Positions 17,801 to 60,896 of a stretch of 64,000 nt of DNA are shown here, piece after piece. Under the pieces are notes generated by a model. It was not told where the DNA came from, searched no databases, and saw nothing but the letters and a program-made list of their open reading frames with translations. The translations under genes and the position numbers were made by a program. Source of the stretch: Polytrichum commune (lineage: Eukaryota > Streptophyta > Polytrichopsida > Polytrichales > Polytrichaceae); contig OX485806.1 of assembly GCA_950295325.1 (NCBI GenBank), forward strand, positions 27,034,001 to 27,098,000, in the 5' to 3' direction. The stretch's first letter is position 1; each line of letters begins with the position of its first letter.

Positions 17801-20800
17801 GTCATAAGTTCATACCTGTATCTCTTCTTTTAATTTGATGCACTCTTGCTCCCTTTCTCTACTTTTACGTCGCACAGTTTGAAGTTCTGCAGTGACATCC
17901 ACTGATATATCCGCCCTTGCCCTTCACAAACACAAAGACATTGAAATATGTCAGATTTTACTTTTGGGGATGCCTACAATAACATACTTGCCCAAATACA
18001 AAAAGGTCGAAACTATCCCTCTACATTTGGCAGTAACATTTGGATTTTGAGAACATGATTGCTCATATCTATAAGTTGAAAGTGAGGATGTCAAAACAAG
18101 ACCATCCTCTAACAGCCTAGACTGCCCAATAATGATCATTCCATACAACAAGCTTAAAGCCAACTGTACAGAGTTTTGATTAAACCCTTAAAAAGATAAC
18201 ACCGCTCTGACAAGGCATTGCTTCTTGACTCAAAGGTGATAGATCATTTTCTTTATCAATCAAATATAACAACAATACACACTCACAGCAGTTCAAGAAG
18301 ACAAAGAGTGGTAGAAGGTACCGAATGTCAGCCAGAAACTGTCGATGTGATTCATCTTGAAGAAGCACCTCCAGGCTTTGTGGCCCACTCACAGGCTCAA
18401 GGCCCATACTCCTCATTCGAATGTTCAGCAACTCTACTTGCAGAGCCTGTATGTAGGAGCCAACCTTGTTATGGAAAGAGGAACAATTTATGCATTCAGA
18501 GGGACATTTATAAAAAGTGAGGGCAAAACACATCAGTCGAAGTGAACATAAACCACCATATTTCTTTCCAGACTAAGACATCTTCGAGTACAATAATAAT
18601 CAGTACTTTTAAGCCACAATATCCTTGTAATTTGATTAGGTGTGCTTACTCGAACTTCTTGCCGGAGCTGATTGAGCATGACTGCCTGTGGATCGCGGTT
18701 GATGACAGGCTTGTTGCGGATATTGCGGGCCCGATTGGCATACTTTAAGGTGTTCAGCGTCTCCTCAAAATTGGTATCTGCTGTGCTGTTGAACAATTGT
18801 GACAGTGAACAAACAAAACCCACAATGAGATTCTGTGTGCTTCGTTGATGACCTTCCAATCATGACAATAGAGAATGCAATATATCCTTTTCTTCATCTT
18901 TCCACACACCCAGCATGACTGTAAGTACCTGATACATGCAATCATGCATGTACGGCTGTTCCCACCCAGAGAGTCCTGTAACATTCCAAAAACAATTTGT
19001 AATCAGTTGGAAAGTTTCATCTTAATGAGCATTTATAGGTGGAATATAGTATGATCAACTACCACACATGACGTGGTCTAAAGCAAGAAGGCATGAAGAA
19101 AAATAAACCTTGCTTTTGAATCCATTGCATAACCAATCAATGCAGTTATAAATTCTCAAAAGAAGAGAAGTAAGCAATAACCAAACAGGTACAACATCAT
19201 TCAAATTGAGTGAATGAGTAATTACAAGCATAAGATTGATTTCAAAATCCCTCAACATGTAGGATGACTGGTATTTAAAGCATCAACACAAAACTATCAT
19301 GAATTGCCAACAACACCAATATAAGTGGAGTCGAGAAGACCTGTAGCATACGTGTGAGCTTTGACTCTCGATATGGCACATGCTGGCCCCTTTTCCGCTC
19401 ATCGCCCAGTGCACTTTACAAACAGAAAAGAAGCCCACCTCATGTATAAGTGCACTGACACTAAAATCCAATGATTAAACAAATTAGCTATTCCCTATTA
19501 CTTAAGAATTAATAAAACTCAAACCAGCAAGGCCTTTAAACTGCACATCACAATAGGGAGCTTTTAGCAAATCGAATTTGAAATATCATCAGTTTTTTTT
19601 AAAGCAAAACCTGATGACATTGCCCAGGGCAAGGAGACCACAGTTAATTGTGACGGACTCTTTAAATCGCATGCCCACAGCACCTGTACGCTTAGCCCTT
19701 TCTGAGCCCGCTAAGTCAACCTGCAACCAGCTCATTACAAGACAGCTCAGGGTTGCTTTCATTATAAAAGCACCAGTAAACAACTGGCATTTTTGCAGTT
19801 CCAAGTTAGGGAGCACTGTGTCCAATTTCAGGGCCTTTGTTATCTATTGATATTTTCTTACAAAAACATTCAACAATTATGTTCAAATAACATTATCAGG
19901 AGATCAAGCATAACATGCATCAAATCATTCATTGATATAAATCTCTCAAGAGCCCATTCCATGTCCCCAAGGTCTGCATTTCAGATACTTGTACAAATCC
20001 TTGACCATATTACACTTTAGGCTATAAGGACAACACTAGCAAATTGCAATATACTTGAACCCAACACGTTGGCAAAGAAGTTGACCAACATATTACATGA
20101 ATCTTTACTTCAGCATCTTTGAGCAGATTGTAATGTAGGTTTTCAAGTATCTTTTAATCCTAACAAGTACACAACAGTGCTCAAGCAAGCTTCTGAGTGT
20201 ACTGCAATGAAGAACCTCCACAGTAGGATTTTTTGTACGTTGGATGAGGCAGGTCGATAGGATTACCAAGTGAAATTTAGCTGTGATGACATCATTGCTA
20301 CTGGCACCTTCTTGGAGAGTTCGCTGCTCCACAATGATGGTGAAGATAGCATGTGAGCGGCTTGAGTGCTGATTCATCAAGGTACTGCCAGTTGTGCGGA
20401 AGACTGACCCATGCTCCAAATACCTGCAACATTGAAGAGGAAACCCATATACCAAAACAATAAGGCCAAAAGATGTTGAAATGCCACTCAATCTGAGGTA
20501 CATTTTCACTGGCACTCACAAGGCATGTATAGCATTTATCTCTTCAGGTATGCAGGAAGGACCAGCCACAGTTGCAAAATACAGGAGGACGTGAAAACCT
20601 GATCATGTTTTCAAAGCTGGTGACAACTTCTTCTTTTACACCTGCTAGAATTATGTCACCATTTGCATCTTCCCGAATAGAGATGGACTTTGATGGTGTG
20701 TCTGGGTGAAGCAAGTCCTTGATCTCCTCATTATAAATCTCAACAAATGCACATTTGACCTAAGAACATAAAATGAAAATTCTTTATCAGTGCCCAATTT

Positions 20801-23800
20801 TCATCACCTTAAATGCTTATGGTGTTGATAATCCTACAATCTCAATGGTAAAAATCCTGGAAAAGAAAAAAGAACTGTCCCACCAAGGCTGGCAGATAAT
20901 ATACACAAAAGCAAGAGATCTATATGAAGGTTCAAAGAGAGTACAAGAAACTCCGCCTGACTGCTGCGTTCCTCAATGCTTTCATACAGCTGTCGAATTG
21001 CACGGGGTAAAATTCCAAGCTCCTCTTCCAATAACGACACATTGTTTCCACAACCCATCGTAAAAGTCTTTCCTGATCCAGTCTGACCATAAGCCAGCAC
21101 TGTTGCATTGTACCTGCTCCCATCCAGGCCTCTCAGATTTTTAGGGACACTTGGATCTGGGTACACACAGCTATCTCAGCTAAGTATTGACAAAGACAAT
21201 AAGTAGAATGGGTGACAGCAAGACAACATTGCAAAAAGTCTTGCAAAAACTTCATCTTGAACAAAACCAACAACGTAAGATGCAAATGGCTCTCTACTTC
21301 AACTTGAACAAAACCAACAATGTAAGAAGCACAGGTTGTCTACACGATCTATGGAGAAAAATAATCCCTCTATCAGCAGCTGTGGACTTATTTGATTAGG
21401 ATGTGCAGCTCTGGGTTAATAACCAAGCCAATTGCATGCACTTAAATGGAGAGCACATATATGAAATTTTACATAAATAAAAATTTCTCTCCACAGACAA
21501 CTGTAAAATGATAGTGGACTCTTTGAAGTGTAAAGGTTAAAGGGTTTTAAGATTCATCCCACACAGCCAGAGACCAGAAGCCCAAAGCAAGATATCAGAA
21601 ACTAGCCATATGGTTCCACCAAGACATGAGTGATAGATGGAGAGCAAAATATGTGGCAACTGAAATGAGGTCCGAAATTACAAGAGAAGTGTGCGGTGCT
21701 CTATAGTGTAGTGTGGAAGCATCAAGGGCACCCTCATGTCTCCCATTCAACAAAAGTTGAGTTCTCAGTAGTTTAATGGCCGTGGGCAGGGAATAATAGG
21801 CACTTTGATGCAAACATCACCAAAAGCCATGTACGAGAATATTGTGCAATTGTTAGCCTTAATCTGAGAATGTGTGAATGACTTTACGACTTAGTTAAGG
21901 CTCATACATAATAGAGTGAAAATTCATCGGAGCTTGCCACTTGATTATGCTCGGCATTCATTCCTAGGGATGAGGATTCTGATTCTTATAGATCTACTCC
22001 TTGAGTATACTTAGAAAGTGAACGAGCTCACAAAGCTTAACCTCTACCATATCACTTGCTTCCAAATGAGTGCGTCCTACTTTTCCACCTGAAGCTCAAA
22101 GAACCAAGATTCTTTAAAAATGGCCTCCACAATTGCTCCAATAACGAGTACCATCCTCTCTCACACTCAACGGGGTCACTGTGGAAGTGTGGGTGTCAAG
22201 TTCACGAAAAGGTAAGTTCTCATTACGTTTTTGCAACAGAATTCCAAAGTTGGGCATAACATTACTAAGCTTCATAAGAGGGTTTCATGGGGCTGGGAGT
22301 CATAGGCACTTTGGTGCTTGAATATTGTACAATTAATTATGCAATATTGTGCAATTTAAGGCATGATCTGATTATATGTGAAGGCTTTCCGTCTTCTGAT
22401 AGGCTCACACATGATGATGTGAGGACTAATCTGGGAGCTTGCCACTTGAGTATGCTGGGCATCCATTCCTAGAAATGAGAACACTAATTATTTCTTGAAC
22501 ATTCAGTTCCTCAAGTACCAAAAGAAGCAAAAAAAGAACAAGTTCACAAGGCTTAAGGCTTCAGAAGAATGTAATATGGAGAGGCTTACCCAGCACAAAA
22601 GAGGGTTCCATGGGGCTGGGAATCCAAGGCCCTTCGATGCTTAAAAATTTGCAATTTTAAGAATGTTCATCTTTTCATAGGCTCGCTCATAGTGGAGTGA
22701 GGACTAATTGGAGTATGCTGGGCATTCATTCCTAGAAATGAGGACACTAACTCTTGAACATTCAGTTTCTCGAATCCAAATAGAAACAGAAAGAGAACGA
22801 GCTTAAAAGGCTTAAGGCTTAAGAATTCAGAATGTAAGGTAATGGAGAGGGGAGAGGCATACCCAGCACATAAGAGGGTTATGTGGGGCCGGAAATACAA
22901 GGAACTTCGGTACTTGAATATTGTGCAAATTTTACAATGTCCATCTTTTGATAGGCTCACTCATGGTGGAATGAGGATTAATCAGAGTATGCTGGCCATT
23001 CATTCCCAGAAATGAGGAAACTAATTCTTGGAAATCCGTTTCCTCAAGTCCACATAGAAACAGAAAGAGAACGAGCTCACAATGCTTCAGACTTAGGGCT
23101 TAAGACGAATACAAGGTATTGGGGAGGGAAGAGGCACACCCAGCACAAAAGAGGGTTATGTGAGGGCAGGGAATCATAGGCCATTAGATGCTTAACTATC
23201 GTGCAATTTTAAGCCTTACTCCAATTAATTGGAGTACGCTCAAATTTCTTCCTACAAATGAGGACACTACTTCTTGGAAATTCGTTCCCTTGAGTCCATG
23301 TAGAAACAGCAAGAGAAATGAGCTCACAAGGCATAAGGCTTAAGGCTTAAGGCTCAAGAATTTATGAATGTAATGAGGAGAGGCATAGCCAGGACATGTG
23401 AGGGTTAATGGGGCCAGACATCAAAGGCCTTTGATGCTTGAATATTGTGCAATTTTCAGCCTTCATCTGAGTGTGCTCGGCTTTCATTCCTGGAAACGAG
23501 GCTACTAATTCTTGGAGATTTGTTTCCTCAAGTCCCAATAGAAACAAAAACCAAACGAGCTCACAATGTCTTGAGGCTTAAGGCTTGAAAATTAACAAGA
23601 ATGTAAGGTAATGGGGAGGGAGAGGCATACCCAGCGCATAGGAAGCACACAAGAGCGTTATGTGGAGCCTGGAATTGAGGCCCTTTGATGCTTGACTATT
23701 GTCCAACTTTAAGCCTTAGTCCGATTAATCGGAGTTTGATCCGCATTCTCTCCTAGGAATGAGGACACTTTTTCTCGAAAATTTGGTTCCTCGAGTCCAA

Positions 23801-24941
23801 ATAGAAGCAGAAAGAGACCGAGCTCACAATGATTTAGACTTAGGCTTAAGAATTAAAATGTAGGTTAATGGAGGGGGGAGATGAGCACCCAGCACCTAAG
23901 AGGGTTACCTTTTGATGGTTGACAGTTGTTCAATTTTGAGCCTTAATCCGATAAAATTGGAGTATCCTGGTCATTCATTCCTAGGAATGAAGTCACTAAT
24001 TATTTCTTAAACATTCAGTACCTCGAGTCCAAATAGAAACAGAAAAGAGAACAAGCTCACAATGCTTAAGGCTTAAGGATTAAGACTTAAGAAGAATGTG
24101 AGATAATGAGGGAGAAGCATACCCACCACATAAGAGGGCAATGAGGGGCCAAGAATAGAAGGCCCTTTCATGCTTGAATGTTGTGCAATTGTAAGTATGT
24201 CCATCTTCCGATTGGCTCGCTTATAGTGGAGTGAGGACTAATCGGAGTATGCTTTCATAGCAATGAGGAAACCAATTCTCGGAAATTCGGTTCCTCGAGT
24301 CCAGTTAGAAACAGAAGAGAACGAGCTCACAATGCTTAAGGCTTAAGAACAAAGAATGTGAGGTGCTGGGGAGGGGAGGGGAGATGCATACCCAACACAT
24401 AAGAAGATTATCTTTGATGCTTGACTATTGAGAAATTTTGAGCCTTAATCCGATAAATCGAAGTATGCTGGGCATTCGTTCCTAGAAATGAGGACACAAA
24501 TCCTCGGAAATTCGGTTCCCGAGTCCAAATAGAAACAGAAAGAGGAACGAGCTCACAGTGCTTAAAGGCTTAAGGCTTAAGGCTTAAGAATTGAGAATGT
24601 AAGGGTAATGGGGCGTACCCAGCACAGCAGCTGTCAACGAGGGGCTTGACGCAGTCGAGGTACACATCCTCCTGCCCGATGGCAGGCCCAAACACATGGT
24701 CGAACGTGAACCTCCGGTCCTTACCCAACACCACTTGCCGTCCGTCCTGCGAATACGACACGCACTCGTTGCACTTCTCCACGATTTCCTTCTCAATCAG
24801 CGGCCTCGCGCGCACCGCCACGCGCACCGATGACGATCCATCGTCCGATGGCAGCAAGCATGAAGGGGGTGGTGGCAATGGTGCGGCCAATGCTGTTGCG
24901 CCTGCTGGAAATTCGTGGGTTGGGGAGAGAGGTACCGTCAT
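7164..24941 (-). CDS. Kinesin-4 family motor protein, 26 coding exons (KIF27/KIF7- or FRA1-like)
   Basis: ATP-driven, microtubule plus-end-directed motor of the kinesin-4 family. Joining 26 exons on GT-AG sites gives one open frame of 1,507 residues, with phases agreeing at every junction. Order: short Pro/Ala-rich N-terminus (1-38), motor (about 39-380), neck, Ser-rich linker (about 530-618), long coiled-coil stalk and a short basic tail. Motor landmarks: P-loop GQTGSGKT (117-124), switch I NQHSSRSH (235-242), switch II DLAGSE (272-277). The start at 24941 opens the frame just before the conserved VRVAVRARP strand; a GC-rich leader lies upstream. Plant kinesin-4 proteins act in wall deposition and the phragmoplast. 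KIF27/KIF7 proteins act in cilia, and several motor motifs here look closer to them. The family call is firm, the subtype open. Exon coordinates are in the segment entries below. Confidence 0.93.
8009..8324. mobile_element. Foldback MITE (family TAGTCCTATTA), copy in kinesin intron
   Basis: Begins TAGTCCTATTAGTGTGGGTG and ends with the inverse ccagagtaataggacta. Internal palindromic blocks are rich in ttttctag and gtggccc. A second copy is at 28980-29273. No convincing target duplication. It sits between kinesin exons 24 and 25. Confidence 0.7.
9527..9655 (-). other. Cryptic exon-like segment in kinesin intron 23
   Basis: On the minus strand it is bounded by an acceptor TTTGCAG and a strong donor AAG/GTGAGT and is 129 bp long. 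One frame is open throughout, but it does not fit the phase left by exon 23. In the phase that does fit there is an early TGA. Exon 23 joins exon 24 in frame without it, so I left it out of the CDS. Confidence 0.4.
9930..13834 (-). other. Kinesin coiled-coil stalk, exons 17-23 (residues 851-1344)
   Basis: Exons: 13834-13694, 13210-12995, 12723-12547, 12245-11943, 10923-10699, 10522-10317, 10142-9930. Exons 17-19 are nearly continuous charged coiled coil ([43 protein letters not shown]). Exon 20 opens with [16 protein letters not shown] and ANKKLKELG, a segment typical of kinesin-4 stalks. Exon 23 has [25 protein letters not shown], the helical segment that precedes the tail in this family. 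All junctions keep frame. Exon 19 has a tandem acceptor (12723 or 12720) that would keep or drop one Gln. Confidence 0.87.
14668..14699. repeat. Short tandem repeat GGCAGTCT (three units)
   Basis: Consecutive ggcagtct units lie in the kinesin intron between exons 16 and 17. A similar minisatellite, acagaacgc, occurs near 16854-16880. Confidence 0.7.
14986..18446 (-). other. Kinesin neck, Ser-rich linker and proximal stalk, exons 9-16 (residues 393-850)
   Basis: Exons: 18446-18322, 17921-17816, 17584-17513, 16732-16358, 16165-15977, 15806-15504, 15337-15251, 15102-14986. Exon 9 starts the neck (ALQVELL after RQEVR). An alternative in-frame acceptor 18 nt upstream at 18464 would add VGSYIQ. 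Exon 10 could instead start 6 nt later, at 17915. Exon 12 carries a Ser/Arg/Pro-rich, probably disordered stretch with several SP sites that could be phosphorylated; this is inference from composition. Exons 13-16 are Glu/Lys/Arg-rich heptad sequence. Exon 13 joins exon 14 directly to give [18 protein letters not shown], typical coiled coil. Confidence 0.85.
21253..21322. repeat. Two-copy short tandem repeat in kinesin intron 1
   Basis: The stretch cttgaacaaaaccaacaa followed by cgtaagatg (first copy, about 21255) returns about 50 bp later as cttgaacaaaaccaacaa followed by tgtaagaag. It lies close to the exon 2 acceptor, outside the main array. Confidence 0.6.
21590..24617. repeat. Tandem repeat array filling kinesin intron 1 (unit about 230-280 bp)
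   Basis: On the plus strand each unit reads roughly: aggcttaagg, a purine-rich patch, gcatacccagcac, gagggttatgtgg, tgcttgaatattgtgcaatt, ggagtatgctgggcattc, aatgaggacacta, aacagaaagagaacgagctc. The cagcac marks fall near 22591, 22864, 23141, 23391 (changed), 23632, 23889, 24125 (changed), 24394 (changed) and 24621. The last coincides with the true exon 1 donor. Units before 22.5 kb are more decayed. In transcript sense most units carry GTGCTGG followed by GT, copied from the exon 1 end. Short sub-repeats of TTAAGCC occur at unit joints. Confidence 0.85.
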
Positions 24942-34809: not shown

Positions 34810-35640
34810 GGCACAATGAACGGGGAGAATCGACCACTAGTTACAAATGAATCAGTTGAGTTTGAGAAATAAGCAGTTGGAAGTTCAAGACTTCAGGAAA
34901 ACTACCTGTCATTTGAGAGGAATCGATTGTGGAATATACTTCACATCAATAAAGAAAAACCAAAAGATTGTAACATGTAACTGGTTGAATTGCCCCCAGT
35001 GTGGCCCTATGTCGGTGGAATCGGTGGAACATAGGTTCTACAGCTGCCCGCTGGCCCAACAAGGGTGGCGATACGCACCCAACATCATTTGGCAACTCTT
35101 TGCAAAGAAGAGGAATCTCGGCTTGCGGAAGTCATTTTCTATGATGCAATGTATTTTTTTTTTCAACCTTTGTGCAAAACATTTAGGCGGTTCATCTGCA
35201 TTTGGTTCTTTTTGAGGAGCGGTCTCCCGTGGATTATAATGAAATGATATGGTCTTTAACAATTTGCAATGGCCCATTGAGAAAACATATAAAGTCATTT
35301 GGGACGCCATGCATGATTATGGCATAATTGCGTGGAAACAAACTCTCAAGGATCTTGAAAAGGCCCCAGATGTGGCCTACCAGTACGTCTTGAATGAATT
35401 TGATTCGACTGTGGGTGTCAAGAACCTTGTTGTGACCTGGAATAACTTAGTCGTCATTTGGATGGATAGGCTGCACATGAGCATTATTTCCTTATTTCTA
35501 CTCAGGTCTCGTTGGCTAGGCCGGGTTGGTTGTATTTTGGGTTCCTTCTTGCAATTGAATTCTCAATTTGTGCCCCAAAAAATGAGTAACTAGTTGAACT
35601 TGAAAACACTAGGATTCTGACCGATTATGCCCAAAATTCT
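34810..35640 (+). repeat. Dispersed repeat family U, copy split by a LINE insertion
   Basis: Left part: gaccactagttacaaatgaa and caataaagaaaaaccaaaag. Right part: ttgaacttgaaaacactagg and gaccgattatgcccaaaatt. Removing the LINE at 34990-35585 restores the continuity seen in the copy near 43250-43400. Confidence 0.6.
34990..35585 (+). pseudogene. 5'-truncated LINE with zf-RVT-type remnant
   Basis: The first frame gives CPQCGPMSVESVEHRFYSCP followed by LAQQGWRYAP, a zinc-binding zf-RVT-like motif (C-x2-C, H-x4-C) found after plant non-LTR reverse transcriptases. It continues, after a frame change in a T-run near 35152, as FRRFICIWFFLRSGLPWI. After a stop and second frame change it runs VFNNLQWPIEKTYKVIWDAM to about 35582. 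The end is A-rich. GTAACTGGTTGAA / GTAACTAGTTGAA flank it (34977-34989, 35586-35598). Only the 3' end of a LINE was inserted and it is now broken; no enzyme is encoded. Confidence 0.75.
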
Positions 35641-59432: not shown

Positions 59433-60896
59433 ATGAGTACCATGAAGTTTTGCCGAGAGTGGTGAGATACAATTCTACCGATTCCTCTTAATCTAGCAGC
59501 TGCCTCATGTGACTTACATGCGAATTATTCTTATCTTATCTTCTCTTACGTTTTGCACGTGTGTGTGTGTGTGTTTGTGTGTGTGTTTTGGTGGCAGTAA
59601 CAATATTTTGTATCCGAAAGAAGATCGGGAGAGGAAGGTTCTGCTGTACGCCTGCCGGAATTGCGACCACCAGGTTTGTTAAGGGTTAGGGTTTAGGGTT
59701 TCTGAGGGTTTCACACGTTTGGGCATGTTGCAAGAAGCACAATCATGTGCGTAAGTTGCGGGGGTGATTGATGTGAATTGAACTTGAGATTTCATGGTAA
59801 GATGCTTTTTCTTTGGAGAAAAGAAAGAAAGACGACTCCGTTGTTGCCACCGCTGTGCATTATGGTGATGATGCTTCATCTTCGAGTTGGTGTAAGTCTA
59901 TGTGGAATCCCGAAATGGGCATCATGAGAATTAGAGGGCCCGTGAAGACTACTGCCTCCTTTCAAAGGTGAACACCGACAAGCCAGCATGCACCTAACTC
60001 CAATCGCCCCCAAGGGCAAGCCCTTAGGTTCCCACGCGGTTGGTTAAAAAAATCCAGCTCACCTGGATACCCACCCCACTATGATTGATTGGGTGGTAGG
60101 GTACAATGGAAATCAAGTCCTAGGAAGGTCACCCATCCATTGGACAAAAGTTGATTATTCAGTAGTTGATTGTGTTGGATACCAAGAAACGGGTGTGGTT
60201 TGTTGGTGCAGGAAGTTGCGGACAACAATTGTGTGTACAGGAATGAGGTCCTTCACAGCGCAGACGAGCGGACGCAGGTGTTGCAGGACATTGCATCCGA
60301 TCCTACATTGCCGCGTACCAAGACTGTGCGATGTGCAAATTGTCAACATGGAGAAGCCGTCTTTTTCCAGGTTACACTCTTTTTGTCTTGGTTCTAGCAA
60401 CTCCTCCACGAGGAGATATGACCCCTTCTATTTCCGGATTCACACATGTGGAGGAGTGCAATAGACTTGTATGTAAAATTCAAGGTTAGGGTTTAAGAGG
60501 TTTAGGCTTTGTTGAACATTTGGTTCAGCTTCTCTCCTTCATTTCTTCTGGACCTTCAATCTTATGGTTCTTACAAACACAAAGCTCACTAACTTGGCCT
60601 CATACCATGCTGATGCCCTCCTCAAAATTAGTACTTTATTAATGTGCAAATGTTTAGTCGCACTGAAATCCAATTTTGCACATGTCACCTGTCATAAGTT
60701 AACAAGTAGACTGTTTAGTGGCATCTACATTGTAATTTGGAAGGCTGTTATACTCAATGTCATGCAACTTACTTTTGGTGGACTGAAGGATGAGCCTTGT
60801 GTGTGGGGATTGCAGGCAACTGCGCGTGGAGAGGAAGGGATGACACTGTTTTTCGTGTGTTGCAATCCAAATTGTGGCCATCGGTGGCGTGATTGA
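59433..60896 (+). CDS. NRPB9: RNA polymerase II subunit RPB9 (NRPB9), 4 exons
   Basis: Small zinc-binding subunit of nuclear RNA polymerase II, at the jaw/lobe of the enzyme; it supports fidelity, elongation and TFIIS-stimulated transcript cleavage. Exons 59433-59461, 59598-59673, 60212-60370, 60816-60896 join to 114 residues, the usual plant length. The N-terminal zinc ribbon uses C7, C10, C29, C32; the C-terminal ribbon uses C76, C79, C103, C108. Hallmark segments are [33 protein letters not shown] and [19 protein letters not shown]. All introns are GT-AG. The frame is intact and all zinc ligands are present, so it should be functional. The start is the first ATG of the conserved MSTMKF; an in-frame Met at residue 4 could also serve. 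Confidence 0.97.
59679..59710 (+). promoter_or_regulatory. Telo-box cluster at the start of RPB9 intron 2
   Basis: Just after the exon 2 donor there are consecutive TTAGGG/TTTAGGG units (aagggttagggtttagggtt) and a further gagggtttc. A second gttagggttt occurs in intron 3 near 60485. Telo-boxes are known near the 5' ends of plant ribosomal-protein, cell-cycle and nucleic-acid genes. A role here is inference. Confidence 0.4.
59920..60080 (+). repeat. Dispersed repeat inside RPB9 intron 2
   Basis: Matches 48295-48440 through ttcaaaggtgaacacc, taggttcccacgcggttgg and cacctggatacccaccc. It lies between exons 2 and 3, within the intron, and does not disturb the splice sites. Confidence 0.55.

Follow-up and report, generated by a model that had tools for sequence, protein, structure and literature searches.

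The first coding intron of a predicted kinesin gene of Polytrichum commune contains a tandem array whose units each begin with a copy of the end of exon 1 and of the 5' splice site that follows it. The history that best fits these observations, to which we assign a probability of about three in four, is an old tandem duplication spanning the exon 1/intron 1 junction that is now decaying as neutral intron DNA, with the first donor most likely still the one in use. The look-alike donors further along the intron are most likely neutral relics.

The kinesin gene and the array in its first coding intron

The coding part of exon 1 (24619-24941, minus strand) starts with an ATG at 24941, ends in GCTGG at its 3' end and was placed by homology to the kinesin-4/KIF7-like motor. 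Exon 2 (20945-21113, minus strand), which holds the P-loop, was placed by the same homology, with its 3' end set by eye. The joined peptide of the two exons matches solved structures of KIF4 (4e-32) and KIF7 (1.2e-30) and the Pfam Kinesin model (2.5e-29), in each case across the junction. The best matches are kinesin-4 members and the gene is a predicted kinesin-4-like (KIF4/KIF7-like) motor, an assignment drawn from solved structures rather than a family tree. More of the motor lies downstream, at 20105-20515 (Pfam Kinesin model, 1.9e-11), and 18533-18859 has a weak match to the end of the same model (0.005, below the cutoff); the borders of the downstream kinesin exons were set by eye. Motor homology puts the joint of exons 1 and 2 inside the conserved run that precedes the P-loop, and this fixes the donor at 24618 and the first base of exon 2 at 21113. 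The predicted true donor GT (24617-24618, minus strand) opens the hexamer GTACGC. The gene's 11 other donors (20944-11942, minus strand; placed by eye) include many that are weak past position +3, such as GTTTTC, GTACTC, GTCTTC and GTTCTT, and weak donors seem to be usual in this predicted gene. Within coding exon 1, at 24724 on the minus strand, the donor-like sequence TGGGTAAG outdoes the true donor in U1 pairing (dG -9.7 kcal/mol).

Elsewhere in the window, that is, the whole 64-kb stretch of DNA that was analysed, an ORF at 60516-60896 (plus strand) ends in a TFIIS-type zinc ribbon (E 1.8e-6) and is perhaps the last exon of a gene for a small RNA polymerase subunit. The region 34841-35215 (plus strand) resembles the zinc-binding part of reverse transcriptases only weakly, below the cutoff (E 0.0067), and is perhaps a retroelement remnant. 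Rfam gave no match in the window at gathering scores.

From 24626 to 22283 on the minus strand lie nine head-to-tail units of 227-315 nt with a mean pairwise identity of 0.73. Written from start to end on that strand, unit 1 (24626-24400, 227 nt) opens with the last 8 exon bases and is followed by unit 2 (24399-24131, 269 nt; decoy donor 24391 GTATGC), unit 3 (24130-23897, 234 nt; 24122 GTATGC), unit 4 (23896-23639, 258 nt; 23888 GTGCTC), unit 5 (23638-23397, 242 nt; 23630 GTATGC), unit 6 (23396-23148, 249 nt; GT lost, 23388 CTATGC), unit 7 (23147-22871, 277 nt; 23139 GTGTGC), unit 8 (22870-22598, 273 nt; 22862 GTATGC) and unit 9 (22597-22283, 315 nt; 22589 GTAAGC), the longest of the nine. 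A degenerate unit 10 (22282-21760, minus strand, 523 nt) holds sequence absent from the other units and scores E 4e-41 against a profile in which it is itself included; this ten-unit profile recovers all ten at E <= 4e-41 and on the minus strand only, as expected by construction. No copy of the array was found elsewhere in the 64-kb window, the best outside matches of two profiles having E values of 1.3 and 2.8. BLASTN of the intron outside the array gave a best E of 0.015 over 31 nt, and all 8 matches to a 15-base array-derived pattern, with up to three mismatches allowed, lie inside the array (shuffles expect 1.19).

The copies have diverged, which is why Tandem Repeats Finder reports only two rows on the scale of the array, 22578-23174 and 23003-23463. 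Pairwise identity among the nine units averages 0.728 (range 0.672-0.810 over 36 pairs; 0.69-0.84 in a second alignment). Adjacent units are barely closer than other pairs (0.733 versus 0.727) and none of the six inner branches of a tree of the nine units is well supported. Both results fit an old array whose units have exchanged sequence, and we infer no duplication order from the tree. Inner segments present in unit 9 are missing, one or another, from several units, and of all the units it may be the closest to the original form.

Part of the intron lies outside the array. The 3' part (21114-21759, minus strand) is without detectable repeat, shows no significant similarity to the array when compared from 21760 (P 0.66) and ends in the pyrimidine-poor acceptor GGGAGCAG. 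Six other acceptors of the gene have a pyrimidine content of 0.52-0.65, and this one (21114-21185, minus strand) is an outlier at 0.35. About 67 nt upstream of it is a U-rich tract with TTAG at its end, and the exon 2 frame stays open from 21175. Exon 2 itself has no significant similarity to the array (P 0.53), which speaks against a tandem duplication of the exon-intron-exon kind, in which the unit would contain the start of exon 2. In the 24 nt past the acceptor-like position of each unit, 5-9 of 24 positions match exon 2, and two of ten alignment scores lie above the 95% point of the null.

The proposal, made in a sequence-only reading of this DNA, that the array was seeded at the exon 1/intron 1 boundary and took in the last exon bases is borne out, as the units align there and start at least 8 nt inside exon 1. 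The 8-mer at the exon end, TGTGCTGG, is the consensus of the eight downstream copies. A count over both strands of the window gives four occurrences, one at the exon end and the others in three of those copies; none of the 308 other 8-mers of coding exon 1 is identical to it. Further upstream the likeness fades. Before these 8 nt, the exon agrees with the tail of unit 2 at 13 of 24 positions, a score equalled at 2 of 297 other exon positions. Six tests of this score against shuffles or other sequence of the window gave P values of 0.011, 0.072, 0.018, 0.033, 0.076 and 0.021. The profile score of the same comparison is about zero (-0.08 bits). Local alignment matches 27 nt of the exon end to the unit 2 tail in the same register (P 0.067), and without the 8-nt anchor the best local match falls elsewhere (P 0.22). 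These comparisons show at least 8 exon bases in the unit, and about 27 would be a lead.

Strength and retention of the donor copies

About eight look-alike donors had been proposed, and eight downstream copies do exist, the positions listed for them earlier lying within 3 nt of ours and the loss of GT near 23389 being real; however, GTGCTC at 23888 had been missed, and the GT is present in only seven of the eight. Donor strength was judged by U1 pairing and by a small own-gene matrix, in place of a plant splice-site model. By U1 pairing (dG in kcal/mol) the true donor scores -5.3 and the copies -5.4 (four of them), -5.0, -4.9, -9.2 (22589, the top of the eight) and -1.5 (the copy without GT). 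Five of the eight thus match or exceed the true donor, and 22589 is ahead by about 4 kcal/mol. The intron has 169 GTs. Fifteen of these, including five donor copies, pair with U1 at least as well as the true donor, and 29 have at least its 5/9 consensus matches. A value of -10.3 for 24126 is probably the duplex sliding onto the neighbouring donor copy.

The matrix gives another order. It was built from the 11 other donors of the kinesin gene, all placed by eye; four (I9-I12) lie outside the motor and have no backing from homology. The true donor scores 7.24, four copies 6.72 and 22589 6.37, and none of the 169 intron GTs is at or above the true donor. The matrix is coarse, its 11 donors ranging between 0.05 and 9.94 when each is left out in turn. 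As the two measures disagree on 22589, the earlier claim that several decoys are as good as the true donor or better holds for U1 pairing only. The exon-to-intron step in composition is 0.32 at the true donor, -0.18 to 0.27 at the eight copies and -0.02 to 0.45 at the gene's other donors.

Retention of GT in the copies is not above the unit average: the 165 dinucleotides of the unit are kept in 5.82 copies on average (sd 1.59), and 38% of them do as well as GT with its seven of eight. Decay is visible in the copy that has lost its GT and in the one that reads GTGCTC. The donor falls within the first 11 columns of the unit, and these are among the better kept, with a score reached by 11 of 167 windows (itself included); this is a mild hint against mere decay of the decoys.

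If exon 1 is read through into the intron, a stop is met at 24572, ahead of the first decoy at 24391 and of all the others, and therefore every longer first-exon end carries a stop. Recursive splicing with zero-length exons needs an AG directly before the GT. The array is like such introns in having several donors inside a long intron and unlike them in that AG precedes none of the eight copies, the five AGGT of the intron lying elsewhere; zero-length recursive splicing at the copies is therefore not expected, which argues against a ratchet-type form there of the recursive splicing that had been suggested.

Comparable arrays

The closest parallel is the VNTR of intron 18 of human ABCA7, which likewise starts at the donor of exon 18. 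According to the published study (PMC5954066), its 25 bp unit is present in about 12 to 427 slightly varying copies and is polymorphic. The donor one unit downstream is used in about 2% of transcripts, retaining 25 bases and introducing a premature stop; this retention is unaffected by the length of the array, whereas skipping of exon 19 rises with it. The kinesin array resembles the ABCA7 VNTR in abutting the exon, in having the true donor in its first copy and in carrying donor look-alikes in further copies, seven of eight with GT. It differs in its unit of 227-315 nt, in its nine or ten copies about 73% alike and in the inclusion of at least 8 exon bases. Among the matches listed, judged by titles and the beginnings of abstracts, the ABCA7 array was the only close one, and a closer case may be in print. 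The view that a splice-junction-seeded expansion is unusual is weakened by this parallel; with the ABCA7 array as an earlier example of the kind, the genomic oddity is modest.

Intron gain by tandem genomic duplication, reported for example for potato RdRp (PMC4974935), also involves duplication of coding sequence together with splice signals. There a new intron was made, whereas the kinesin intron has apparently been enlarged, exon 2 being without significant similarity to the array.

Origin of the array and choice of donor

On the favoured account, DNA spanning the junction, from the end of exon 1 to a point inside intron 1, would have been tandemly duplicated long ago. Ordinary unequal crossing-over or conversion would then have raised the number of units to nine or ten and mixed their sequences, with a donor copy carried along in each; the extra donors would since have decayed roughly as fast as the remainder of each unit. 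The first donor is most likely still chosen by the cell because it is the nearest across exon 1 and the decoys lie in non-exon sequence, and transcripts spliced now and then from a decoy would include the stop at 24572 and probably be degraded or useless. The start of the unit inside exon 1, the average retention of GT, the top rank of the true donor in the own-gene matrix, its larger composition step and the stop all argue for this account. The U1 pairing of five of the eight copies, the coarseness of the matrix and the better-kept first 11 columns argue against it, and an upstream untranslated exon is possible. Human data (PMC9225289) indicate that the upstream of two near-equal donors is favoured at internal exons under exon definition, which may not hold for the first coding exon here or in this organism; the stronger donor was dominant in 86% of events, and before filtering for strength the downstream donor was preferred in about 60%.

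The direction of copying could be the reverse, with the array already in the intron and conversion replacing the last bases of exon 1 by those of the repeat. Certain identity does stop 8 nt into the exon, and its last residues are SCCAG, against GVFKG in KIF4 and AFFEG in KIF7. The faint match between the tail of unit 2 and the exon further upstream (the 13 of 24 positions with P 0.018, at a profile score near zero) would fit copying from exon to array better, and we consider the reverse improbable. It is harder still to credit a dispersed satellite or mobile-element family that landed at the junction and matched the exon incidentally: nothing speaks positively for it, further copies were not detected in the window, and an exact match extending over 8 nt of the exon would hardly arise by chance.

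The remaining alternative gives the decoys a function, in that, alone or with an acceptor-like site in each unit, they would make stop-bearing transcripts that tune kinesin dosage by copy number. Each unit does hold a TTTCTAG-like site, 121-142 nt past the donor position in the nine units measured. The AG is kept at eight of ten such positions, and the pyrimidine content is 0.52-0.65 in all ten, like six of the seven gene acceptors scored. Together with the next donor these sites outline eight pseudoexons of 90-143 nt, five with both AG and GT and all eight with an in-frame stop when joined to exon 1; the rise in skipping of the next exon with array length in ABCA7 (PMC5954066) points the same way. 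On the other side, GT is kept no better than the unit average, the AGs are explicable by shared ancestry alone, inspection by eye found no obvious branch point near them, and in the same study use of the downstream-unit donor in ABCA7 is independent of array length. A regulatory array is accordingly unlikely, and its fullest form, in which each unit would be a complete pseudoexon outline (acceptor-like TTTCTAG, 90-143 nt, stop, donor) and the intron a row of poison exons whose number sets the amount of motor protein, is very unlikely; were it true, a change in copy number would be a heritable dosage dial. Average GT retention, the first place of the true donor in the matrix, the lack of an AG just before any donor copy, the stop at 24572 and the stops in all eight pseudoexons give no sign that the decoys matter in the way that had been suggested.

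The locus offers a natural competition series, in which one true donor and eight homologous copies of graded quality share a single intron of a gene with several other weak donors. It bears on the relative parts of position and donor sequence in the choice of a splice site.
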